From contig OX485803.1 of the NCBI GenBank assembly GCA_950295325.1, positions 58,109,554 to 58,173,553 on the forward strand: a stretch of 64,000 bases of DNA, written 5' to 3'. Made by a program: the position numbers and the translations under genes. Shown here one piece after another: positions 2,291 through 32,756 of the stretch. The notes under the pieces were generated by a model. That model was not told the origin of the DNA, did no database searches, and worked only from the letters and a program-made list of their open reading frames with translations. Each line of letters opens with the position of its first letter. The stretch's first letter is position 1. Source of the DNA: Polytrichum commune (lineage: Eukaryota > Streptophyta > Polytrichopsida > Polytrichales > Polytrichaceae).

Positions 2291-3265
2291 TCCTCATTAT
2301 CGTTGAATTTTGCAAGCAATATAGTGGCACCTTATCCCAAATTGGAATAAAATACTCTTAAACATTTCATTCATAAAGAAGATCAAGAGAATCATGACAT
2401 CACCTTGTCCCAATTTGTTAATCACCACCACGGGTAGATCACTCTAAGGCATTTTTGTGCACCACGTGCGGCTGGGGGTTTTTTGTTTTGGGGCTATTTA
2501 CCTTCAAGGGTTGAATTAAAGCCTCCCTATAATTACTTAAATTTCAAAAATGTCCCAATTGTTTGCACCCTTCCATTACTTATATTGTCCAAGTCACTGC
2601 AATTTTTTGTACTCTATATTCCTTTTAAGCCATTTTTGGATAGACGGAAATCCCAATTATCATCCATCCCCGTGAGTCCTAAACCCATTTACATACCATA
2701 CTAAACATACCTTCTAGGATCCTTATCTTCAGCCCCTATATTAATTTTACAAAAAAAATAATGGCCCATGTTTTATGTACATCTAACTTACTTATAATGG
2801 GATTGTCTACATTTAATGGCCCCTTCATTATTTGGAATTCCTTTATAATTTTTATTTCAAATGATTTTAATCCTCTCTATGTTATGCCGCACGTCGTTTT
2901 TAAAATGCACTAAGTGATCTACCCGTGATCACCACCTGGGAACATTGTGACTCATACGTGGGTATGCTCTACAATGCCATTGTTGATACCCAACCATAAA
3001 ACATTTACAATGCAACGAGGATCAAGAAGATTATATCAAGCCCGTGTGACATACGAATAGGAGAGCATTGGTTCTTGTTTTATTATGTTTCAATGTTTTA
3101 TATTTGAAAATATAACGAGTGCTTTGTGTTACACAAATTAACATTGGTGGTGCTTTCAGATTGCACAATTTGTAAAAAAATTGCAACCAAATTTCATCTT
3201 CCCACCACAAGGACTTTGATTATGGCTATGAATGATCTCTTGATTTAATTGACACAAGGTTATAA
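2291..3265. repeat. Dispersed repeat R1, copy 1 (split by element A)
   Basis: Outside element A this segment aligns with 11338-11805. Shared features include AAGATCAAGAGAAT, GATACCCAA and a stretch ending GATGATCTCTTGAT. The two copies are clearly diverged. No coding function is recognised. Its main value is that the second copy lacks element A and so provides an empty target site. Confidence 0.75.
2429..2927. mobile_element. TIR element A (499 bp), 8-bp TSD
   Basis: Both ends carry a perfect 15-bp inverted repeat, CACGGGTAGATCACT, flanked by identical 8-bp direct repeats ATCACCAC (2421-2428 and 2928-2935). Similarity continues inward past the TIR through a CACGTGCGGC-like block. Its right portion is homologous, in reverse orientation, to the left ~230 bp of element B. 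Its left portion is homologous to the right ~200 bp of B. A is therefore an internally deleted, non-coding relative of B. The 8-bp TSD is typical of hAT elements and also compatible with other superfamilies; the TIR does not start with the usual hAT CAGGG. Confidence 0.9.
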
Positions 3266-3399
3266 CAAATATTTAATGAAAGGTAGACTTTTAGATTACA
3301 ATTGGATTAAATTAGAAGTAATTTATTGAAATCTAGGGTCTTAAATAGTAAATATGTATGCTTAAAGCACCCTTATATGTAAATAGTGAAGAGAATAAA

Positions 3400-3700
3400 A
3401 AATAATTATATAATTAAATATGGAGGCAAAGCCCATATAACATGTGGAGATTTCCCAGTGCCTTGTGAATTGGGAGATTTTTCCATGTTTATACAAAATA
3501 TTTTGAACGTACTAAATAATAAAATGGGGAGACCTCCCACTTCACAATTAAAAAGACATTTTCAAGTACACTATAAGCAAATTTCACGACATCATGGAGA
3601 GATCTCCCAATGTGGCTCCTGAGGTCAATATCGGAGACCCCACTAATATCACCTTTGGAGCAACACCGGGAGATCTTCCAATATCATAACCAATGAAAAT
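3400..3700. other. Non-coding stretch with GGGAGRYCTCCC palindromes
   Basis: No convincing gene is seen. The segment contains several near-perfect palindromes of the type GGGAGACCTCCC (3527-3538) and GGAGAGATCTCCC (3596-3608), with looser versions near 3445, 3473 and 3665. The same motif recurs at 5826-5837, about 5903 and 8258-8269. Confidence 0.5.
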
Positions 3701-3819
3701 TCAAATAAATAAAACTACAAGAACATTTACAAGATATTGAATTTATTTCTTTTGATGTGGCCTTTAAGACACAATCTATAATAATCTAGAAAACAATTTT
3801 AGACATATACCAAAGGAGG

Positions 3820-6503
3820 CTAATGTGGAGGTTGTATTGCACTCCTACTTACCATCCCAAGTGCCTTTATAACGTTCAAGTTCTCACATTTTTTTGTTTT
3901 CCATCTCCAATACCAAATTTGAAATTTTCCATACTGAAAATGGTTCCTATCTAGTTGCACAATTGTGAGTGCTTGGCCCATCCCACGGGGAGGTGACTAT
4001 CGGAATTTTAGAGACCACGTGAGATTAAAAAAAAAGGATCAATTTAATTCATTAACGGTAAAAAATATAATTTCGTTAGATCTACCTTAGCATTGAAAAT
4101 ATGTCCCCTACATGATTATATGTAAGATAGGGTGCTGAATAATTCCTCAATTTTAATAATCACTAGAAAAAATAGGGTTATAGATATTGGATCCCCCTAA
4201 AAGTGTGCAGTAGGATCAATAAGATAATTATGGCTTTTATATTTAGCTTTCTTGTATTTGAATGCAAATTTTTTTGGGGAGTAGGTAGATTTGCAAAATT
4301 CTATGTCTTGTCACAATTGATTGTAATTCTTGTTTTGTTCTATCTGTGTTTACAACTTGTCTACGTTAGCTTGTATATTTTATTATCTCCATGTTTATCG
4401 GTAACCCTTTAACTAGTACCCAAATGCTATTGGTTGTGTTTTGAATGCAATTTTGAATGGTTTAGGATTGGTATAACTAATTGAATAACAAGATGGATGG
4501 TATGGAAGGTTTGTTGCTCACATAATCAATTTTGCAATGCTATAGTATTCTATCCACTATTTGGTACTTGTACGATTTATAGAAAAAGTATGATGCCAAA
4601 AATTAACCTCTCTAAATAATTACAAATAAATATAGGGTGCTAAAAAATACTTCAAAGTAGCTTTATATCAAAATAAGCCAGGAAAAAATATTGAGAAGTG
4701 CATAAATATCCCCCCATTAAATACCCCATTATCGCACGTGGTTACAAAACTGTGATCGCCCCGAGGCCCATCCACACATGATAGATATTAGTGCCTGGAG
4801 GATGGACAAGAAAAAAATCACCTAAAGGAACATCTTTGTGAGAGTTGTAGGATTCTCTACATTTGTTAAATGCAATTCCACATAAATGATCTTTGGAATC
4901 ATCCTCTGATGTCGTGTCCTCTTGAACTACTTCGAACATGCTTGCATCGGTCATTATATATGTTGTTGATGGCCAAAAACCAAATTGTAGCTTGCGAGGC
5001 ATCAAGGAAAATGGATAATCTAGTTCCACCGCAACATCTTTCTAGTAGATTACATTATCCTCTATTTTTCACGGTAAGTTTCATTTTCCAAACAATTGTT
5101 CTCCCAAATTTCAATTAACTTCCTTATACCGCAACGAATTCCTTTTCTTTTCTTTTTTGCATCATGAGCATCCTTAATAATCACTTCCTTGTCTCCATAA
5201 CGTCCAACGATAGCATGGCCCAAGGAGGTTTAATTTGCAGAGCGGATAGTTTGCCTATGGGAATGAGTGGGTGGCCACGACCATCATCCTTCCACATGAA
5301 AACCAAATTATTTCATGGCAACCACTATGGATCAAGTGCAAATTTTTGTACTAAAATACAAGCCATCCATCATTCTCCACAAAGAACTTGAAAATATGCA
5401 TTTCCTTCAACCCCACAAGGTCCTCAACATAACCTTTAATGAAATATTTGAAATTAGCAACCTCCTTAATCAAATCTAGAATAAAGGATTTATGATTTCA
5501 TAAAAGTTTTCATGAGGTCAGCAAGAACAAATGTCTTTGTTGTTCTGAGTTGTTTGGATAAATAATTGAGATATTCATCTATGTCTTCATGAGTATGGTC
5601 AATGAGTAGAAATCCAACCTAAATCTCTTAGAATAGCTTTCAAGCCATCAACATGCATAGAAACGTCATTATGTATTGAGTTTTATTGTCCTTAGCCAAT
5701 TGTCCAGTTGTAGATAGGTAGAGGTTTGAAAACATCCGGACCATCAGTTGTTGGTGGAATTGAAGAATGACATCTAGAGGCCAAATAATAAACACATTGA
5801 AAATTAGGATGGTGTAGTTTGCATTGGGAGACCTCCCGATCTATCTACACAATTGTAGCACAACTTACAGTGGCCAGCATCTAGGTCCAATGTGATGCAT
5901 TGGGGAGGTCTCGCGATGTCCAGCTGTGAAAGAAAATGAATCTCAAAAAAACAATTGTTGACTTGGTTTTATACCATATATGTTTTTCAAAATAATCCTT
6001 CAATGGCCTTTCATCAAATAGCTTCTTGGAAGTACACACTAGAGGGTTTTCCAGTCACGAAGGCACCTCGCTAGAGATGACATAATGAAGTTCCAATTTC
6101 TAAGCCACAATCAATTGCATAATAAGTGTATGCGCCATTGCCGTGACCATGAGTGACCATGCTAGTGAGGCTTACATGCAACTAGAATAATCCCGCAGTG
6201 GTTTTTGTTATCACATGGATGAATAAATGTTTTGTTTTTTGGTATATATTCTATCGTAGAAGATTGCCATAACCTCACGCGGGTTGATTTTGGACTCATG
6301 GTGCCATGCATAGTATAGATTATGGCATGAACCATGGTGATTGTTGTGTTTTTCCAACTCCTTAAGATTCTCCCTCTCTTCACTTTCTTTGATGCTCATG
6401 TCAATGAGGTCCTTGTAGTGTTTGCATTCTAAGCACTTTGAAAAATTGAGACCTCCTTTGCGGATGTCCACATTTTGGAGGACATTGTTCTAAAAGCAAC
6501 TGA
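3820..6503 (-). pseudogene. Decayed DUF7869-type gene, interrupted by element C
   Basis: On the minus strand, fragments in shifting frames follow the order I recall for the plant DUF7869 family. A Cys-containing segment KCLECKHYKDLID lies near 6430. It is followed by a His-rich segment (SCHNLYYAWH, near 6320) and an LQLDN-like then KDNK segment (near 5720). Next come HTHEDIDEYLNYLSK (near 5580), LADLMKTFM (near 5510), EMHIFKFF (near 5400), FGFWPST (near 4975) and GTNIYHVWMG (near 4790). Frameshifts and stops lie between them, so it is not functional. Element C (3984-4765) splits the last block. Without C and one TSD copy, the frame continues about 46 more codons to a TAG at 3820-3822. The spaced Asp residues and HTHEDID motif suggest a metal-dependent nuclease or transposase-like fold, which is an inference. 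The assignment rests on recall, not a search. Confidence 0.65.
3984..4765. mobile_element. TIR element C (782 bp), 8-bp TSD
   Basis: The left end CACGGGGAGGTGACT matches the terminal repeat of element B at 14 of 15 positions. The right end is a more diverged inverted version ending CGCCCCGAG, preceded by a block resembling the subterminal CGCACGTGGT of B. Exact 8-bp duplications GCCCATCC flank it (3976-3983 and 4766-4773). No protein is recognised inside; a 69-codon ORF at 4203-4412 is hydrophobic and AT-rich and is probably chance. It lies within the DUF7869-type pseudogene. Confidence 0.8.
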
Positions 6504-6511
6504 CATTCGAT

Positions 6512-8011
6512 CACGGGGAGGTCACTTAGTGCATTTAAAAAACGACGTGCGGCATAATATAGGGAGGATTAAAATCATTTGACATAAAAATTATAAAAGA
6601 ATTCCAAATAATGAAGGGTCCATTAAAAGTACATAAGCCCATTACAAGTAAAATAGATAGGTATAAAATATGGGCCATTCCCTTTTAGTAAAAATAATAT
6701 AGGGGCTGAAAATAAGGATCTTAGGATGTATGTTTAGTAGAATCAATTTTGTACGCATGCCTCATGAGGGATGGATGAAAAATTACTCATCATTCACCCA
6801 AAAATGAATGAAATTGGAAGCCTCAGTACAGGGAACCGGAAAATTTTTGCCAACCATAGAAGTTGATGGGCATTCCATTTACAAGTCAACGTTTGTCTCA
6901 CAACTCAATGGTAATGTTTTTCTATCCAAAGATAGATTAGCAAGAATTATACATAGTATTCATTTCAACAACCATGATAATTGTCTCCAAGCAAGATCTT
7001 CATGTGGATCAAGTTTGTTATCTATAGGATCTGATTGTGGGGTGCATTTTGTCCAACGGAGCACAACAATGCTATTGTCAACTGTAAAATCCGCTGCCAA
7101 ACGAAAAAGGGGGCGTTCAATGACTGATGTTAAAGTTGGAAATGCTACTAACATATTGAACGGAGTAGATTCCAGTTCATGGTGGGTGGGTAGGGTGCAG
7201 GCTATGCGGCGGCGCAATGGGAAACAATTTGGAATACTTAGGCAAGCGGTTGACCTCCTTGCTCGAACGGAGGAATCAGGGAGGAGAAATCCTAATAATC
7301 CCCACATCGAAGTAATGTTGCAATATTATAGAAAATATCCAGGCCATAATAAATTTAAGTATGATCACACGGATAGCAAATGGATTGATGTAGATTGCAT
7401 TATATCTACGGTAACCATAAGCTACAATTCTACAAATGAGGTGTACACTCTTGATAGGAATGATTCAGAGTAACTGTCCAAGTTTGTGACAGAACGAACT
7501 ATATAAGATTCATGACCAAGCTTAAAGTGTTTCACACTATATGGTTTTGGTCTTCACCAGCATGTAAAGTGATTTTGAATAAAGGATTTTTATGGAGCGG
7601 GTGTTGTGTTTGTGAACACACACACAATCTTGTTGTGTTTGTAAACACACACTCAATCATGTTGTGTTCCATCCTAAGTCTTCTTTTTGTATTTTCACTC
7701 TAAGTTTTTGTACTTGGTTTTTGCAATGGTACGTAATTTATATAATTTTTTTGTTGCCATGCTTTTCCCATCACTTTTGCATTGCATACATTCTTAAATT
7801 CAGTTCTTTTAATTAAAAGGAATATAGACTACAAAAAATTTCAATGACATGGGCATTATAAGTAATGGTAGGGTACAAAAAATAGGCCATTTTAGAATAT
7901 TATGTAATTATAGGGAGTTTTTAATTCGTGCCTTGGAGGTAAATAGCCCCTAAACAAATACCCCTCCGCCGCACGTGGTACACAAAAATCCTACTGAGTG
8001 ACCTCCCCGTG
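6512..8011. mobile_element. TIR element B (1500 bp) carrying one ORF, 8-bp TSD
   Basis: The two ends are perfect 15-bp inverted copies of CACGGGGAGGTCACT. They are flanked by CATTCGAT (6504-6511) and CATTCAAT (8012-8019), which match at 7 of 8 positions. Subterminal sequence at both ends, including a GTGCGGC block, is shared with elements A and C. B is the longest of the three and the only one with a substantial ORF (6808-7473). No recognisable transposase motif is seen, so B is either a partner-dependent element with an accessory gene or a carrier of captured coding sequence. Confidence 0.9.
6808..7473 (+). CDS. 221-aa protein inside element B, function unknown
   Basis: This is an intact ORF of 221 codons beginning ATGAAATTGGAAGCC, entirely between the TIRs of element B. 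The N-terminal third contains VQGTGKFLPTIEVDGHSIYK and then SQLNGNVFLSKDRLARI. A basic stretch (AAKRKRGRSM, about residues 94-103) follows. The centre has WWVGRVQAMRRRNGKQFGI, then YRKYPGHNKFKYDHTDSKW and a C-terminal IDVDCIISTVTISYN block. The WWVGRVQ...FGILRQAVDLL part reads like a small beta-rich reader-type fold, which is an impression only. I believe similar proteins occur widely in plant gene sets next to DUF7869-like proteins, but I could not check. Composition is balanced, unlike the surrounding AT-rich noise, and the frame has no stops. It may have been recently coding, or be an accessory gene of the transposon. Confidence 0.55.
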   Translation: MKLEASVQGTGKFLPTIEVDGHSIYKSTFVSQLNGNVFLSKDRLARIIHSIHFNNHDNCLQARSSCGSSLLSIGSDCGVHFVQRSTTMLLSTVKSAAKRKRGRSMTDVKVGNATNILNGVDSSSWWVGRVQAMRRRNGKQFGILRQAVDLLARTEESGRRNPNNPHIEVMLQYYRKYPGHNKFKYDHTDSKWIDVDCIISTVTISYNSTNEVYTLDRNDSE

Positions 8012-8019
8012 CATTCAAT

Positions 8020-9900
8020 TGAGAGACGCTTTGAATTACAATAAATCTTAATTTATCAGTAACTTTAAATAATGGACTCTTGTTTTAGGATTGGGAGGGC
8101 TCTTGATCCTTGAACCAAACCTGATTACTTTGTGCATAACCATATTGTTAATAAGACAGTGTGAACTATTTATGATATACAAATAGATTTGCATTTTCTA
8201 GGAGACCTTGATTTGAGGCCTAGTATTAATAACACGTCCACACACTACGATAGCATTGGGAGGCCTCCCCATGCAAGACATGATTACTCTTGAGGAAGTA
8301 CCATGATAATAAACACACTAGCGGTGTATCAAATTTTCATATAATTAAGGCTACTAATCACATATACAATAAATGTCACACCTACCAAATCTTTTATAAT
8401 AATGACAATGATCTTATGACATGTACTCATGGGAGTTACAAATACTAGGAAATGAGAACAATACACCATAGAGTGCCACTTCTTGGCAAAGAATTTTTTT
8501 TCCCTTTAGCTCCTCGGGGGGGGCAATGTGATAGAAAGTTAAGGATATAGGTGCGAACAACCACTATTTTATAGGGGGGTATTACTTTCAATTCTCTTCT
8601 TTTTTTCACATGCTATCATTATGTAAATTTCTATTTTGGGTTAATAGAAAAATGGCTTGCATTACTTATAATTCCAAATTCCCTATTATTCCATACCCTA
8701 TAGTACTTTAAAGATGTCCAGTGCCATTTTTGATACCCTATATTACTCTTAAGTCCAATTATAAATTTTTGCCCCCATGTTTTTAAAATACCCTATCATT
8801 TGTTCACACGTATATTGCTACTCCAACCAATGACTAACCCCCCCCCCCCCCCGAGTTTAGCTCATTGCAAGGTAGAAATACTTGAAATGGTCGAGAGGAC
8901 ATACTAATTCCACAAAGAGGAACATGAAAATAATCAGAATGGAGGATATTACCAATAGTGACACCGAATATAATAGCCACAACGGTATTGAAATTTAGAG
9001 ACCTCATAATGTTGCCTTGAAAAGAGAAAAGGGTGTGTGATTCATTAGGATGGTGTGATGAAGTTGAAAATAGTATATATAAGGAGCTCTCCCACAACCA
9101 TTTTTATTTTTGCTTCCATGGCGAAGCCTTGTTGCATTGCAGAGCAAACATAAATCCCTCATAGTTTGCAACAAGATTCAGTTTACCATCCTCTCTGCTA
9201 TCCCCATCCATCTTTCATCACATTTTCATCCATTTTTATCCACTTTTATCCTCTTTTTGCCCTTTTCAATCCATACTTATGTAGAGTATTTCATGGTGCG
9301 AATCAACGAGCTACCTAAACAAACTCGAGTTGCACATGCATGAGTTGTTGCGCAGCCAAGTTAATATCTTGCACTATTCATTCTTTTTCTTATCCCTAAA
9401 GAATTGCATCAGGAGCCCTCCTAATGCAAGTGCTTTGTGTTGCTGCATTTTGTTTGAACTTCTTGCATCAACAACACTCCCAATGCAAATTCTTTCAGGG
9501 TTTATGCTTGGGTTTGTTGCAATTGCGTAGAGCAACATGCATGAAGAGATCTCCAATTACTAGACAATCTTGTTAGCCCAAAGAATGTATTGCATTTGTA
9601 AATCATACATTTGGCCGCTCTATTATGTACGCAATTTTGTTTAAGTACATGATATTCTCATATTTGTTTGTCATGTTTATAATTTTGTTCAAGGTAGCAG
9701 GTTCATATGTTGAGTTGTACAGCAAACTCAAAGGTCTCCCAATCTATATGGTTCCAGTGTAGAGTTATCGATGAATTAGATCTTCCATCTCTAAGATTCA
9801 TTCGTCTACTATAGGGAGGTTTCTACAAGCAACGATGGGAACTTAGCGGTTGAAGCATTTGGTGTGTAAAGCGAAAATGTTGGAAGTTTTTCTTTACCAA
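8020..9900. other. No gene recognised
   Basis: AT-rich non-coding DNA. It contains a GGGAGGCCTCCC palindrome at 8258-8269, a 15-base C run at 8838-8852, and several short ORFs between 8834 and 9556 with low-complexity translations and no family resemblance. Confidence 0.5.
8838..8852. repeat. Homopolymer C run (15)
   Basis: Fifteen consecutive C bases, an unstable tract and a likely sequencing trouble spot. Confidence 0.9.
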
Positions 9901-18547: not shown

Positions 18548-18874
18548 CTACACTAAATAGGTAGATTAGTGTTGGAAACACTAATAGTCGACGAAAATGC
18601 TAAATGTAAATTGTCTTCATAGTGTTAGAACACTAAATGTCAACTCTAACACTATTTGTACCAAGTAGTAACTTTAAATATTTACATGAGCGCATTTAGT
18701 GTTAGATGATATTTTGTAAATCTTGGAATGAAGAATTGAAGGAAGAAGAACATGAGAACCTCATAAAAGGTATAATTTGTTCAAACCCTATTCAAACACT
18801 AATTGTAATATCAGTTGAAAATTAGTGTTTTAGGTAACTATTGCATCTAACACTAATCTACCTATTTAGTGTAG
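18548..18874. mobile_element. Nested MITE (327 bp) with 26-bp perfect TIRs
   Basis: The ends are perfect 26-bp inverted repeats beginning CTACACTAAATAGGTAGATT. The left end is preceded by CA, giving CACTACACTAAAT, which resembles CACTA-type termini; the right end lacks the matching TG. No clear target duplication was found. It lies between the Harbinger left end and the transposase start, where it interrupts the sequence after AAAAGAGGGGCAGCCCT. Confidence 0.75.
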
Positions 18875-18945
18875 CTACATATCTTCATTCTCTCTTTTTT
18901 AACTTTCTTTTTGAGTTTTACATCCGTGAGGGAAAGAAAAAAAGC

Positions 18946-20258
18946 ATGATGGATCATATTGAGAGAAAAAGGAGGATTCTTATTGCATTGGCTTTATATT
19001 GGTGTTTGCACATGATTGTGCAACATGTGCTTGATATGCAAGCATGGGCACTCAATGGAGAATGGGAAAATGCCCTGATTTTGAGCATTTACTTTGACAG
19101 TATGAAGATGAGCGATTATAGTCTGTGGGCATTTGAGAGAAATGTAGGGTTCACCGATAGGTTATTATTGGGTTCTTTCACGGAAAAAATGTTCAAACAA
19201 AGAACTCGTGTATGTCACAACACATTCAAGTTTCTTTGTGAGATGTTAGGTCCGTATTTACAGAGAAAGAATACACATATGAGAGAGACAATTTCAGTTG
19301 AGAGTAGAATTGCAATGTCATTACAGAGGCTTGGGACTAGAAATACTTTGTATATTGTAGGGGAGGTATATGGGGTGGCTGAAAGTACAATTTTAGAGAT
19401 AATTAGGAATTTTTGTAGATTGGTAAGAATGCATTTGCAAGGGACTTTTATATAATTTTCAAGTCCAACTTGGTTTAGGATTTTAACTCAAGAATTTAAG
19501 GCCCTTCATGGAATACCTCATATTATAAGAGCAATCGATGGATTTTACATTCCATTCCTTGCATCTATACTTAGAGGAGCGAATTATTATTGTAGGAAAT
19601 CATTTCATCCACCTTTATTGCAAGATATAGTAGATACAAAATGTATCTTTTGGGATTATAAATTCGGATGAGCAAGTTGTATGCACGATTAGACATTGTT
19701 TCAATTGATAAAAGTTGGAAGAGATTACATTAAAGGCAAATTCTTATCTTATAAGCTGATTGGAAATTACGCATATTCAATACAACCATACATTTACAGC
19801 CCATTCAAATGGTGTGCAGAAGGTTTACAAGCTTAATAAGAAAATTGGAATTTCATTCAAAATTCTACTTATATGTGTCTAGAACGTGATTTCAAAATAT
19901 TGAAAGGCAAATGATGAATCATTATAAGAAGAATTGATATATCATTACGACATATGGTTGATATAGTTGCTACATGTATTGTACTACACAATATGTGTAT
20001 AATTGGAAATGACAAATTTGATATAGAATGGATAAAAGAATCTAAAAGAGAACTGAATAGACGTATAGATAGTACATTATTCAAAGAAGGACAAGAAATA
20101 AGAGTTGAATTAGCAGCAATAGGTGAGATCAAAAATATCACTATTACATAAAATAATGCAGGAAGAATGGAAGAGGTTGACAAAGGTACTGAAATTTTCT
20201 TGATAAAAGAAAATAAAAAAGATGAAGATTTATTGCTGGAAGCTATAAAATGCATATA
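18946..20258 (+). pseudogene. PIF/Harbinger transposase (DDE_Tnp_4), broken
   Basis: The first part is open from MMDHIERKRR (18946) to a stop at 19455. It includes ALYWCLHM, SDYSLWAFERNVGFTDRLLL, FKFLCEMLGPYL and IVGEVYGVAESTI, the usual N-terminal order in plant Harbinger transposases. Beyond that the family pattern continues in other frames. RAIDGFYIP carries the first catalytic Asp near 19535, and YYCRKSFHPPLLQDIVDTKC follows. WDYKFG, then a stop-broken HD.TLF segment, marks the second Asp, and KVGRDYIKGKFL comes next. LERDFKILKG supplies the Glu near 19890. VDIVATCIVLHNMCIIGND and an acidic tail with ELAAIGE end it. Several stops and at least two frameshifts make it inactive. The intact protein would cut and rejoin DNA at the element TIRs, usually with a Myb-like partner. 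Confidence 0.9.
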
Positions 20259-28163: not shown

Positions 28164-31100
28164 CTACATAGGGGAGGGAACCCGAGATGGTGCTCTCTCC
28201 TGCAGGTTGTCACTGCTGTTTGACCAAAATGAGCAGAACATGCCATCACTGTGAGGAGAAAGTGCCTTTGCAGCAGTTGGAGTGTTCGACGGGCTAAAAG
28301 GTGTCGAAGAAACACAGCTCATGGGTGGAGAGTATGGAACTCTGACTCGCGACTTCACATTTGCCGCCGATGTCCCACTGCTGCTGCTGCCTTGGCAGAT
28401 GGTGCCAAAATTGGGAACCACTGCACTTGTTCGATCCGCAAATCCTGGTGGCCCATTTCCAGGGCCAACTGATTCGTTAACAGTTGCTAAGGAGGATGGG
28501 TGGCTCTGCTCTAGTCCCAAAGGTGAGACGTCAGAGAAAAAACCAGAAAATGAGGAGAACAGGGCCTGCGTGGGACTCATGTCACCACCAAGGAGACTCT
28601 CAGAGTGTTCAGGCACTAATTGCCGGTGGAATCCCCTTATAGGATCTCCTTCCTTTTCAAGCCCTGCCAGAAACCCATTCTGCTGCAGGTGAGAACTGCA
28701 GTGACTGAGATCACCAAAGTGGTTGCCCCAAATATCATACATGAGCTCCCCTGAGCTTTGTCCAGACAAAGTGTCTGCTGGATATCCTGTACCAGTGGAG
28801 CCAGTTTCCTTCTCCTTGTCTGTGAAGTTACCCTCAGGTTTGGTTGTGAACCCTAATCGTCCCCAACCATCATTAACAGGAGCAACATTGTTGCTACACT
28901 GCTTTGTGATCTTTGCTCCAGGGGCCCGTAAAGATGGTGCAATTACTGGTGGAGGGACTATAGGACTACCAGTTATGTCCATAGGATTGTTCCGCTCAAC
29001 TCCAGGAATGTTCCACTGTGTACCTTGAGAAGTCCGGCCAGGAAAAGAGGCCGATGGAGTCAAAGCTGGCACATTGCTCCCTGAAGGTTTCCGTGAATTT
29101 CCAGTCTTGTGAGTGCGGTTGCTCCCTCGATAAGAATGACCCCCGTCTTCAATATCATCTCCTTTGGCAAATCCGGAATTTGGCACATTTTTTCGAGCAA
29201 CAGAAACCCATTCGTTGTTGTTGGCCCTCTTTCCTGTTCCTGAATCCATTTTTGGTGAGGCCTGCCAGCTAAGGTCGGCTCCTTTGGCTTGTGCCATCTG
29301 CCGCAATGCATTAGAGGCAACATCAACACTGAGACTTTCAGGCCTCACAAAGGCTGGTGCAGGATTTGAATCCAATGGAGAATAGGCATCTGGATTTCCA
29401 AGAAGGGCAAGAGTTGTATCTCTTTCCTCAGCTCCAGAAACTTTCAATTTCATTGGAGGCGTGGTCAGAGGAATATGACCCAACAAGGCATGACTTGATG
29501 AACTATAGGAAGCATTAGAGGATAGTGGACTAACAGGCTGAGGGGGACTTGCAGGTGTAGCTGGAGAAGCAGGAGATGCTGGCGATATGCCTCCATTGGC
29601 ACCCAAGTTTGTACCAGAGTCCTGCTTTGATGTGCCCTGGCCCCTCTTCTTTTTCCGCTTGGTTTTCTCTCGAGGTGACACTGGCTGTGCCTTTTGAGCC
29701 AAGGAATTCCTGAAAGGGGTCATTCCAGTCTTCCGTGGATCTGCAGCTGGAGAACCAGGAGCAAGACTAAGTTCTGCAACAGGTGCCTTCGATGTATGCT
29801 TCTGGACACAGTCCCTGTCATCAGAGGTAGATGCTTCTATGAGAATGGTAGGGGTTGCAGGATTGACATCTTCCTTGGGGCATTTGGATTTCCTTGGCTG
29901 CTTTCCAGAGGACGTAGCCGGTTCCACCATGCTCACTGGTAGACACTCCTCCACTGCCTCCATCACAGCTTTGCCATTGCGTGGTTGGTCAAGCCTTGAA
30001 ACCGCATTATGTTTCCTATCTGCGCTCCCCTTCCGTCCACCTTGATGTGCAGCCCCAAGCCCAGGTTGTTTTGTACTGGATAACCCCCCTCCGCCACTAG
30101 ATTTTGTTGTTTGTGGTAAACCTACAGAGGGGTCAGAAAGCTTCACTCTTATGTGAGGGAGAGTCAACTGCGAAGATGATTTAATACAATCCTTTCTTCC
30201 AAGAGCAGATAAAATTGATGCTTTCAAGCCTTCTCCAACAGACTCCAAAGCACCAAAACCCCATATCTTACTCCACCTGTCCCGATACCTACTCCCTAGC
30301 AGATGACTCATCCAACTGGAGCTCTTCCGATGAGAACCACTCTTGACTTGCTCCCCAGACAATGTTGGCAGCACTGTGTCATGCACAAACATTCGAAAGA
30401 ACACCAATATCCCTAACAACAGTGCCAAGAGTAGAAATCCAAGAAATAATTTTCCATACTCCGTCAGTAGACCTCCATCTAACATCTGACTTGATAAATC
30501 AGCTACTAGTTGGATCTTCCGGAACCTAGCACTTAAGAACGTACTCTTGTCCATCCCCTGACCTCCTTGAGCACCATCTGTAGATTCGCCAAGAATCAAG
30601 TCCCCAGCTGCTCGGCCAGTACTTTCTGTCACAAAAGCCATAGCCGGAGGAGAAATATGAAAACCCAAACCTTGCAATAATTGAGCCCTATAGGGAACTT
30701 CAATAGGGCGAATGCGTGAGCTGTTAACATGCACCATAATTTTTTGCCCAGCTCCACATGGACTGGAGCCCTTGTATGTAATTTTAGCCACTTCGGTCTC
30801 CACATGTGGAATGAGAATACACCCTTTCGTGTACTCAATCAGAACATTTTGATCTCCACAGCCGTCATATATCTCTTCAATCTGCAACCAAATCACCGAA
30901 TATACGTTATTAACAGTCTGAACAGTAACCTCAGAACCATCACATGCCAAAACAAGGAAATGCTAGCATGTTCCATGAGATAGGGTTGATGTAAAAGAGG
31001 AGCTCTGACCTGTACTGACTGGTCACCAGAGCTGAGGAGGATCAGAGGCTGAGTTCTTGGCTGATCTCCTCCCACCAGCACTCCAAAGTCCATGCAGGTA

Positions 31101-32756
31101 GGAACTGCCTGGACAGGTGAAGCTTGCAGGCTGACTGGGAAAACCAAGGTCTCCATTCCATTCTCAGAAGGGACACCAGAAACTCGAATGCAGAGAGTTC
31201 CTTTGTAGTCCTCATCTGGTGTAAACTGCAACTCTAATATATCTTGGCTTGTCTGAGGTTCTATTTCCCAAGCTCCTATGGCTCGCAGTTTTGTTTCTAG
31301 TCTGTTCCTGCTTTCTTCATTCTTCCCAATATCAGACTTATCTTCAACATTTACTCCACTGCTATTATCAGTGTCACCCTCAACATTGATAATAGTTCCA
31401 CCCAGGAATCCAGTTTTGTCCTCTAACCAGGGGAATATATCATCCACAATAAGGGTGTTGTCATGAGGATTGAATAATGAGAGACGGAGGTTCGTATCAT
31501 CTAAAGTCTGCTTTAATTCCAATTTGTAAGGAGACGCGATGCCTTCACCTTGCATCTGAATTGTTAACCTGCCCTCACTTGTATCCACAGTCAGGATACC
31601 TTCAACAGCTCCAACAGATTGCGGTAGAAAAGCCACATGTAGCCTAAGCTGTCCGCCAGGTGCAACAACATTCTCCTTCGATTGTAAGGCACTAAACTGC
31701 CAATTGTCACTTCTGATGCTATGGACTTCTATTGCAGAGCTATTACAAGTGTTGATGATAGTCAACTGGGCTTGTATGGGTTGAAACAGTCTCTGCTGAC
31801 CCCACTGCAGTTGAGAGGGAACTACAGTTGCACCTGATGGGGTGGAAGATGGGGAGTTCTTCAAAGCCTGAAGTTCCTTGGAAGAATCACTTGAAAGCAG
31901 AAACTCAGAAGTAGCTGCCCTTGCTGCTTGCACAGGGAAAGTAGAACCGCATAATCCTACACCTCCTGCTCTGTCAAACCTTACTGGTATCTGTTCTGGA
32001 TTCTCCATCCCTAATTCTTCAGTTAAGCTACTACTAGCTGTCAGTGTAGTCAATTCCTTAGTTGGCGACCCCAAGCCATGTGAATCGATTCCTACAGAGG
32101 AGACAGACCTTGTTTGATGGCTTTCATGCTCCTCAGACAATTTATTGGTTTTTTTGATTTCAATGTCAAAATCTGGAACAACTCGATCATTTAGTTTCTT
32201 GAGAGCTCCTACGCCACCTAAAATCTCTACTTGAGCAGAGTCTGCACAAATGTAACACACAATTACAACCCTTTCCAGAATTAAGAAGACCAACAAGCCT
32301 TCAGCTACTTGTGTGCTACGTTGTGACTACATTGCAAGAGAAATTTCACAATACTAAATCCTGCGCTTTTGTAATAATAGAAACCTCTAAGGACCTACAA
32401 AACGTACAGAAAATGGTTACAACAGAGAATTCTCTTTCCCCAGTCAAGTTCCAGCTCTACATGTCATTTGGAACAAACTACAGAGAATCCAGGTCCACTG
32501 ATTACCATACACAAATTGCACCATGCCATCACCAGTTCATCAAGATACTGAGCAAGACCATAATCATACCTTCCGGAGTTGCCACAGCAGCGATTTCTTT
32601 GCAAGAAGGGTCATCTTTCGACCCATACGCAAGAGGGTCACAACTACTCGGAAGTCCCAAGCGTTGGTTTAAATCTGATTGCACTCCTTCCGTCCTTGCA
32701 TTTGCCGAGCATGGCATGCACAGGAATAGCAACAAAATCGACAGCGACAAATACAT
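28164..32756 (-). CDS. TMEM131-like single-pass membrane protein, three coding exons
   Basis: Coding exons are 32756-32570, 32241-31010 and 30881-28164, totalling 4137 nt (1378 aa plus TAG). Introns of 328 and 128 bp have GT-AG ends and phases 1 and 0. The start MYLSLSILLLFLCMPCSANA gives a signal peptide at once. Residues about 207-302 form the PapD-like module of TMEM131 (LQWGQQRLF, VAPGGQLRLHVAFLP, GEGIASPYKLE), followed by an FNPHDN motif near 319. A second beta module has CMDFGVLVGG at 445-454. The helix LFLGFLLLALLLGILVFFRM is at about 618-637. The remaining ~740 residues form a Ser/Pro-rich cytosolic tail with basic KRKKKRGQG, an SPASPASPATPAS run and NEWVSVARKN. In animals TMEM131 binds secretory cargo such as collagen through its luminal PapD-like domain and TRAPP through its tail; the plant role is unclear. 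All exons are open and the length suits plant homologues. Confidence 0.92.
30882..31009 (-). other. TMEM131-like gene intron 3 (128 bp)
   Basis: On the minus strand the donor is CAG|GTCAGAGC and the acceptor is TTGCAG|ATTGAAGAG. Phase 0. Reading through it gives in-frame but non-homologous residues. Confidence 0.85.
32242..32569 (-). other. TMEM131-like gene intron 2 (328 bp)
   Basis: On the minus strand the donor is CCGGAAG|GTATGATT and the acceptor is TTGTGCAG|ACTCTGCT. Splitting a GAC codon (phase 1) joins ATPE to DSAQVEI. Confidence 0.85.

Follow-up and report, generated by a model that had tools for sequence, protein, structure and literature searches.

Four related insertions and their family in the genome

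A 64,000-nucleotide stretch of the land plant Polytrichum commune (assembly GCA_950295325.1, contig OX485803.1, positions 58,109,554 to 58,173,553 of the forward strand; hereafter the window) carries, between positions 2429 and 8855, four related insertions, A, C, B and D, each bounded by terminal inverted repeats (TIRs) and flanked by 8-bp target duplications (Table 1). They were recovered by a scan for C[ACT]CGGG end pairs with 8-bp flanks matching at 7 or more of 8 positions, which returned no pair in 20 mononucleotide-shuffled windows. We consider it probable that A-D are non-autonomous members of a cut-and-paste DNA transposon family whose full-length copies, 5.8-9.7 kb long, code for a ~1,500-residue transposase with a catalytic core arranged as in the Drosophila P element. 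An earlier sequence-only reading had reported three members, A, C and B; on re-reading, their coordinates, TIRs and flanks (exact, exact and 7 of 8) proved correct, and the end-pair scan adds D as a fourth. All four have TIRs, a target duplication and multiple copies without a complete transposase, the traits of non-autonomous TIR elements. A is placed on the minus strand relative to the sense of the transposase gene, its left end corresponding to the 3' end of the full-length element L031. The two TIRs of C are alike at 10 of 15 bases, and blastn found no match of C to A or B, with which it has only the ends in common. In being short, TIR-bounded, multicopy and devoid of a long frame, A, C and D resemble plant miniature inverted-repeat transposable elements; unlike these, their source transposase falls outside the usual superfamily models, and A, B and D can be traced to full-length lineages.

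In the genome searched (407.8 Mb in 64 contigs, the window lying on contig C1), the 15-bp TIR CACGGGKAGRTCACT occurs 2,389 times in forward and 2,381 times in reverse orientation, and the related end CTCGGGGSGRTCACW 85 and 98 times; the reversed-pattern controls gave 0 + 0 and 0 + 1, respectively. The same genome has six matches to the LEAFY DNA-binding domain, and one exon looks to be of land plant type. The scored match counts for the individual elements are lower bounds: 40 of 1,671 first-look candidates for B (main matches 96-100% identical, 36 of the 40, among them the copy in the window, covering the full length of B), 40 of 902 candidates for C (the other 39 matches 85-90% identical) and 40 of 1,590 for D (96-98% identical besides D itself). 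A further short subfamily of 341-421 bp (L013, L014, L015 and L018), with ends like CACGGGGAGGTCACTCCATTGTCAAGTTGAA, keeps the 15-bp TIR around an interior unlike that of A or B; no full-length parent of this subfamily was found.

Target duplications were compared in 47 intact-ended copies, comprising A, C, B and 44 pairs with two exact 15-bp ends at fetched loci. L001, being the same copy as B, was excluded, and 14 loci (L023-L026, L028-L030 and L032-L038) gave no pair, an end being diverged or outside the piece. The 8-bp duplication is exact in 38 copies, matches at 7 of 8 positions in eight and at 6 of 8 in one, that is, at 7 of 8 or better in 46 of the 47, and in none of them do the flanks match exactly at a length between 4 and 12 bp other than 8; the bases immediately beyond match at background level only. 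Outside this set, the duplications are exact for D and also for L033, L034 and L036, although the ends of these three deviate from the 15-bp pattern, and for two long copies that were read in pieces and then joined, one duplication is exact (GTCACAAT) and one matches at 7 of 8. The family thus consists of transposons that insert with an 8-bp duplication, and the single TIR group with such duplications put forward in the sequence-only reading is borne out.

The shared ends might alternatively belong to copies of a larger duplicated segment, or be repeats that arose by chance, and the presence of four members within ~6.4 kb of the window is in keeping with this. However, the 10-bp outer flanks of the 47 copies are all distinct on both sides (closest pair 8 of 10 alike) and the flanks match over 8 bp only, so a larger duplicated segment does not explain the shared ends; the empty reversed-pattern control of the TIR search and an empty site point the same way. 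The latter is that of L039, whose 8,496 bp are inserted in another repeat: when the joined flanks of 12 copies (one duplication removed) were used as queries, those of L039 were found uninterrupted at all 40 scored places of 1,653 candidates, at 95-99% identity. This result concerns L039 alone, the other 11 copies being absent from the matches because its host repeat occupied all 40 scored places. Given the distinct outer flanks and the L039 empty site, segmental duplication was ruled out, and we give practically no credence to either form of this explanation; of the two dangers that the sequence-only reading had foreseen, flanks without a consistent 8-bp duplication and a segmental duplication, neither materialised.

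Table 1. Features of the window and full-length elements of the genome; coordinates refer to the window unless a contig is named
Feature	Position	Strand	Remarks
Element A, 499 bp, non-autonomous	2429..2927	-	15-bp TIR CACGGGTAGATCACT at both ends
A target duplication, left, ATCACCAC	2421..2428	.	exact
A target duplication, right, ATCACCAC	2928..2935	.	exact
Element C, 782 bp, multicopy	3984..4765	.	diverged TIRs CACGGGGAGGTGACT / CTCGGGGCGATCACA
C target duplication, left, GCCCATCC	3976..3983	.	exact
C target duplication, right, GCCCATCC	4766..4773	.	exact
Element B, 1,500 bp	6512..8011	+	exact TIR CACGGGGAGGTCACT at both ends; internal deletion of L039-type 8,496-bp element
B target duplication, left, CATTCGAT	6504..6511	.	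7/8 against right copy
B target duplication, right, CATTCAAT	8012..8019	.	7/8 against left copy
Open frame in B, 221 aa, transposase C-terminal remnant	6808..7473	+	same sequence type as C-terminus of P0001
Junction of the deletion in B (positions 310-312 of the element)	6821..6823	.	CCT common to both sides of ~7.0 kb loss
Hairpin-like motif TGTGTTTGTGAACACA	7605..7620	+	downstream of B remnant frame
Hairpin-like motif TGTGTTTGTAAACACA, second copy	7634-7649
Element D, 343 bp	8513..8855	-	TIRs CTCGGGGGGGGCAAT / CTCGGGGGGGGGGGG, 11/15 alike
D target duplication, left, TTTAGCTC	8505..8512	.	exact
D target duplication, right, TTTAGCTC	8856..8863	.	exact
Full-length element L031, 9,703 bp	C3:23844933-23854635		1,502-residue stop-to-stop frame
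Full-length element L033, 5,802 bp
Full-length element L034, 6,351 bp
Full-length element L036, 8,426 bp
205-aa frame	18838-19455	+	Pfam: no match (E up to 0.01)
TMEM131-like host gene	30893-32326 and 28164-30962	-	PF12371, E 5.6e-18 in frame 30893-32326
Near-palindrome, seven copies	3467-3486, 3522-3541, 3592-3611, 3663-3682, 5821-5840, 8088-8107, 8253-8272

Full-length elements and the origin of the short copies

Longer copies were reached from an internal stretch of L009, a copy of 2.1 kb. A genome search with the first transposase protein, in which 31 of 1,985 candidates were scored, gave 33 matches at 40-100% identity and uninterrupted frames of 1,493 to 1,549 residues at nine loci; a tenth row with such a frame belongs to a locus whose main match contains a stop. 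Five (L031, L033, L034, L036 and L039) of nine long loci inspected for their ends have a convincing end pair, and L031, L033, L034 and L036 are full-length elements in which both ends, an exact duplication and a single uninterrupted long frame occur together. In L039 the single intact frame is no longer present. The full-length copy and transposase that the sequence-only reading had called for are thereby in hand, with lengths of 5.8-9.7 kb, frames of about 1,500 codons and a residue layout suggestive of P.

B goes back to an L039-type full-length element from which one internal segment was deleted: the left 312 bp of L039 (98.1% identical) and its right 1,191 bp (96.9%) are joined in B, and 3 bp at the junction, CCT, belong to both sides. 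Because B consists of two joined L039 ends, its open reading frame is the C-terminus of the transposase. The sequence-only reading was right that B, the longer element, alone carries an open reading frame, but the frame itself is a remnant that bears no sign of selection, the pooled ratio of non-synonymous to synonymous polymorphism (pN/pS) being 1.12 among eight copies; the ratio is 0.72 for L039 against the B copies, and the frame spans 205-258 codons in the seven other copies. A captured host gene, or any gene under selection, was therefore ruled out for this frame.

The two parts of A match the ends of the 9,703-bp L031 at 92% and 95% identity, and the halves of D match those of the full-length L036 at 87% and 91%; one end of L037 also matches D. 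A and D thus stem from two full-length lineages other than that of B. The sequence-only reading took A for a relative of B that is inverted and has lost internal sequence. The two are indeed relatives, their ends being 82-87% alike, but they are deletion derivatives of two sister full-length lineages, A not being a deleted B. The full-length parent of C was not found. Aborted gap repair is known for P elements and Ds, and the 3-bp junction overlap in B would fit such an origin.

The transposase and its P-like residue layout

The seven uninterrupted proteins of L031-L037 were aligned (residue numbers are those of P0001). Identity of the first protein to each of the other six is 47-53%. L036 and L037 diverge at the N-terminus but are otherwise almost alike, which leaves six distinct lineages. 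Synonymous change is saturated in 20 of the 21 protein pairs, the exception being L036 versus L037 (ratio 0.83), and the saturation, together with a non-synonymous divergence (dN) of 0.19-0.57, indicates long-term constraint on the transposase. The protein is about twice as long as the P transposase and has two invariant N-terminal zinc-finger patterns (C204, C207, H234, H240 and C318, C328, H341, H347). A PDB profile search with the transposase gave no match, NCBIfam, searched with the first protein only, no credible one, and PHROG at most weak matches in single members (best E 0.0044) that we take as chance. Relatives of the family outside this genome were not confirmed in any of the viral contigs, phages and prokaryote genomes searched.

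A paper on human THAP9 gives as the P residues that matter D230, D303 and E531 for catalysis, D339 of a D(2)H motif and D444 for GTP (PMC8230255), and a P-element review describes the same catalytic triad and 8-bp duplications (PMC7776569). Invariant counterparts of all five residues occur in the same order in all seven proteins, D707, D826, D873, D975 and E1068, among them a putative DDE triad with D(2)H in the P order (D707, D826, D873-x-x-H876 and E1068) that was assigned by eye from the sequence. The spacing, identical in the seven, is 119/47/102/93, as against 73/36/105/87 in P and 70/40/105/94 in human THAP9, and the distance from the D(2)H aspartate to the glutamate is 195 residues here, 192 in P and 199 in THAP9. 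The surroundings of three residues are also reminiscent of P: ILAEDETKV at D707 versus VLAFDEMKV, YIDIF at D975 versus FDIF, and DxCExFF at E1068 versus DIVEHFF. D707, D826, D873 and E1068 were picked by eye, and D975 was sought later, at the distance that P and THAP9 would predict; with 102/93 against 105/87 and 105/94 it is the candidate counterpart of D444 in the insertion (GTP-binding) domain, which in P lies between beta5 and alpha4, with a rival register at residue 1006. When 17-mers were ranked within each protein against the P contexts, D707 came first in all seven, D975 first in five and second in two, and E1068 second to sixth, and a window-free scan, in which all 552 17-mers of P were compared with a profile of six rows (L037 omitted as nearly L036), returned the D230/D707 register as the best and the D444/D975 register as the sixth. 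The order of the four motifs recurred in 1 of 200,000 core shuffles, a post hoc figure to be read together with the contrary results below. The likeness to the P superfamily (Drosophila P, zebrafish Pdre2 and human THAP9) extends to TIRs with subterminal motifs and to many internally deleted copies. The family differs in its two N-terminal zinc-finger patterns, with no THAP domain found, in a conserved C-terminal region, which is the part kept in B, and in its land plant host.

Several results weigh against this interpretation. Aligned by hhalign with the P chain 6p5a, the whole protein scores E 0.21, within the range of eight shuffles, and for the core 16 of 200 shuffles score as high in local mode, 28 of 200 with loose gaps and 85 of 200 in global mode. 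The Pfam P-element core PF21787 has no match genome-wide, nor any in the control genomes. In the Pfam scan of the seven proteins nothing credible appeared, the hits being to three unrelated families in one member each (best E 0.038), which we take as chance. A THAP domain was absent from the Pfam scan of the seven proteins at E up to 10, after HMMER's filters; according to the P-element review, THAP domains are absent from plants (PMC7776569). With shuffled contexts, the D303, D339 and E531 surroundings behave as chance (1,335, 2,728 and 1,581 of 3,000) and those of D230 and D444 are suggestive at most (196 and 241 of 3,000), while the 17-mer ranks are low for the D303/D826 context (8-19) and the D339/D873 context (23-124). 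The register that places D444 on residue 1006 outscores D975 in six of the seven proteins, at one window, and lies slightly above it in the P-wide scan. The distance between the first and second acids is ~46 residues longer than in P. Finally, four of the nine long loci (L032, L035, L037 and L038) lack a convincing end pair within the 10 kb read. The competing D444 register lowered our confidence in the explanation as a whole and raised that in an already catalogued family (see below). A P-type core is thus supported by the residue layout and not by the profile comparison, and one residue with its spacing hints at GTP dependence. As the profile match is not significant and no THAP domain was found, we call the transposase P-like in its layout without assigning it to P.

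An 8-bp duplication would also suit a very diverged hAT transposase with BED-like zinc fingers, such duplications being usual in hAT (PMC12730594). The N-terminal C-x2-C...H...H patterns of the alignment, the short TIRs and the many non-autonomous copies agree with that idea, as does a hAT-rich genome with at least 150 matches to the hAT dimerisation model (150 scored of 1,060 candidates). Yet this same model, PF05699, matches none of the seven proteins, as the sequence-only reading anticipated in finding no obvious hAT and leaving the superfamily open, and the motif between the second and third acids is D(2)H, as in P. In hAT this motif is C(2)H. Membership in Kyakuja-Dileera-Zisupton (KDZ) was considered because Zisupton and one Dileera family make 8-bp duplications (PMC12730594), and Zisupton and Kyakuja are reported from Chlamydomonas and relatives (PMC8226300). 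However, the KDZ model PF18758 matches none of the seven proteins; it is also silent genome-wide, as it is in the control genomes, so that this second negative is weak by itself, and two Kyakuja families are described with 7-bp duplications and without TIRs (PMC12730594). For MULE, no domain appeared in the Pfam matches of the seven proteins, and the duplications are 8 bp, none 9. MULE duplications are of 9 bp (8-11). With no such domain in the seven proteins, hAT, KDZ and MULE were all rejected as assignments; we hold hAT to be improbable and KDZ very improbable.

The family might already be catalogued, as a poorly modelled named superfamily such as Novosib or as a Repbase family. Novosib makes 8-bp duplications and occurs in green algae, and it is not known to have a Pfam model. 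It is a superfamily listed in Repbase (PMC4455052). The P-like layout, however, does not require Novosib. No paper was identified as describing the family; Repbase and most subscription papers were outside the search, so the family may be in print, and we regard an existing entry as unlikely. Returning to the P-like reading, we suggest, tentatively and at rather less than even odds, a separate superfamily of cut-and-paste transposons in plants that is sister to P, with a zinc-finger transposase of ~1,500 residues, a P-type DDE core, a GTP-binding insertion domain and thousands of ACGTG-core ends in a land plant genome.

Proposed transposition route and further features

The TIRs, the size of the duplication and the DDE-like layout suggest a cut-and-paste mode. 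We propose that the N-terminal zinc fingers would bind the element ends, perhaps at an ACGTGCG-like block 27-45 bp in, and that the DDE RNase-H core (D707, D826 and E1068 of P0001) would cut and rejoin the DNA with an 8-bp stagger, while the insertion domain with D975 may bind GTP as D444 of P does. Full-length copies would mobilise short copies in trans, and short copies would form by aborted gap repair at short homologies. A block resembling ACGTGCG or AGGTGMG lies 27-45 bp inside 17 of the 18 ends of nine elements, the exception being the right end of L039, and the pattern occurs in 4.4% of random 70-mers from the window; we take it as a candidate zinc-finger binding site.

As the transposase matches no domain model used, annotation by such models would probably miss these ends, leaving thousands of them unnamed, or, going by the 8-bp duplications, would assign them to hAT. 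If the P-like core is real, GTP-requiring transposition of the P type extends to plants, in a branch that uses another kind of DNA-binding end; this would help to root the P lineage and provide a model for plant genome annotation. If the family is a separate sister superfamily, GTP-dependent transposition is not confined to P elements. The young copies (the scored B and D families being 96-98% identical) and the intact frames of ~1,500 codons make transposition activity directly testable.

Two features were observed downstream of the transposase frame. The first is TGTGTTTGTRAACACA, a possible 6-bp stem with a 4-base loop, which lies 84-606 bases past the transposase stop in six of the nine long elements (L031, L033, L034, L036, L037 and L039, 3' of the frame) and twice in the window. 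Within those loci it is confined to these positions and to the sense orientation; we would guess at an RNA 3'-end signal. The second is an open frame at 8906-9271 of L031 (THLLDVALDVFGNW...), which has a weak match in L032 (30%, E 1.8e-5, at 9702-9890 in the sense of the frame), none in L039 and one at chance level in L034. A universal second exon is unsupported by this distribution; the frame could be either a last exon or a lineage-specific addition of the L031 lineage.

Elsewhere in the window lie a TMEM131-like host gene and a 205-aa frame that we take to resemble a PIF/Harbinger-type nuclease. Seven copies of a near-palindrome around TTGGGAGACCTCCC are scattered between and around the four elements.

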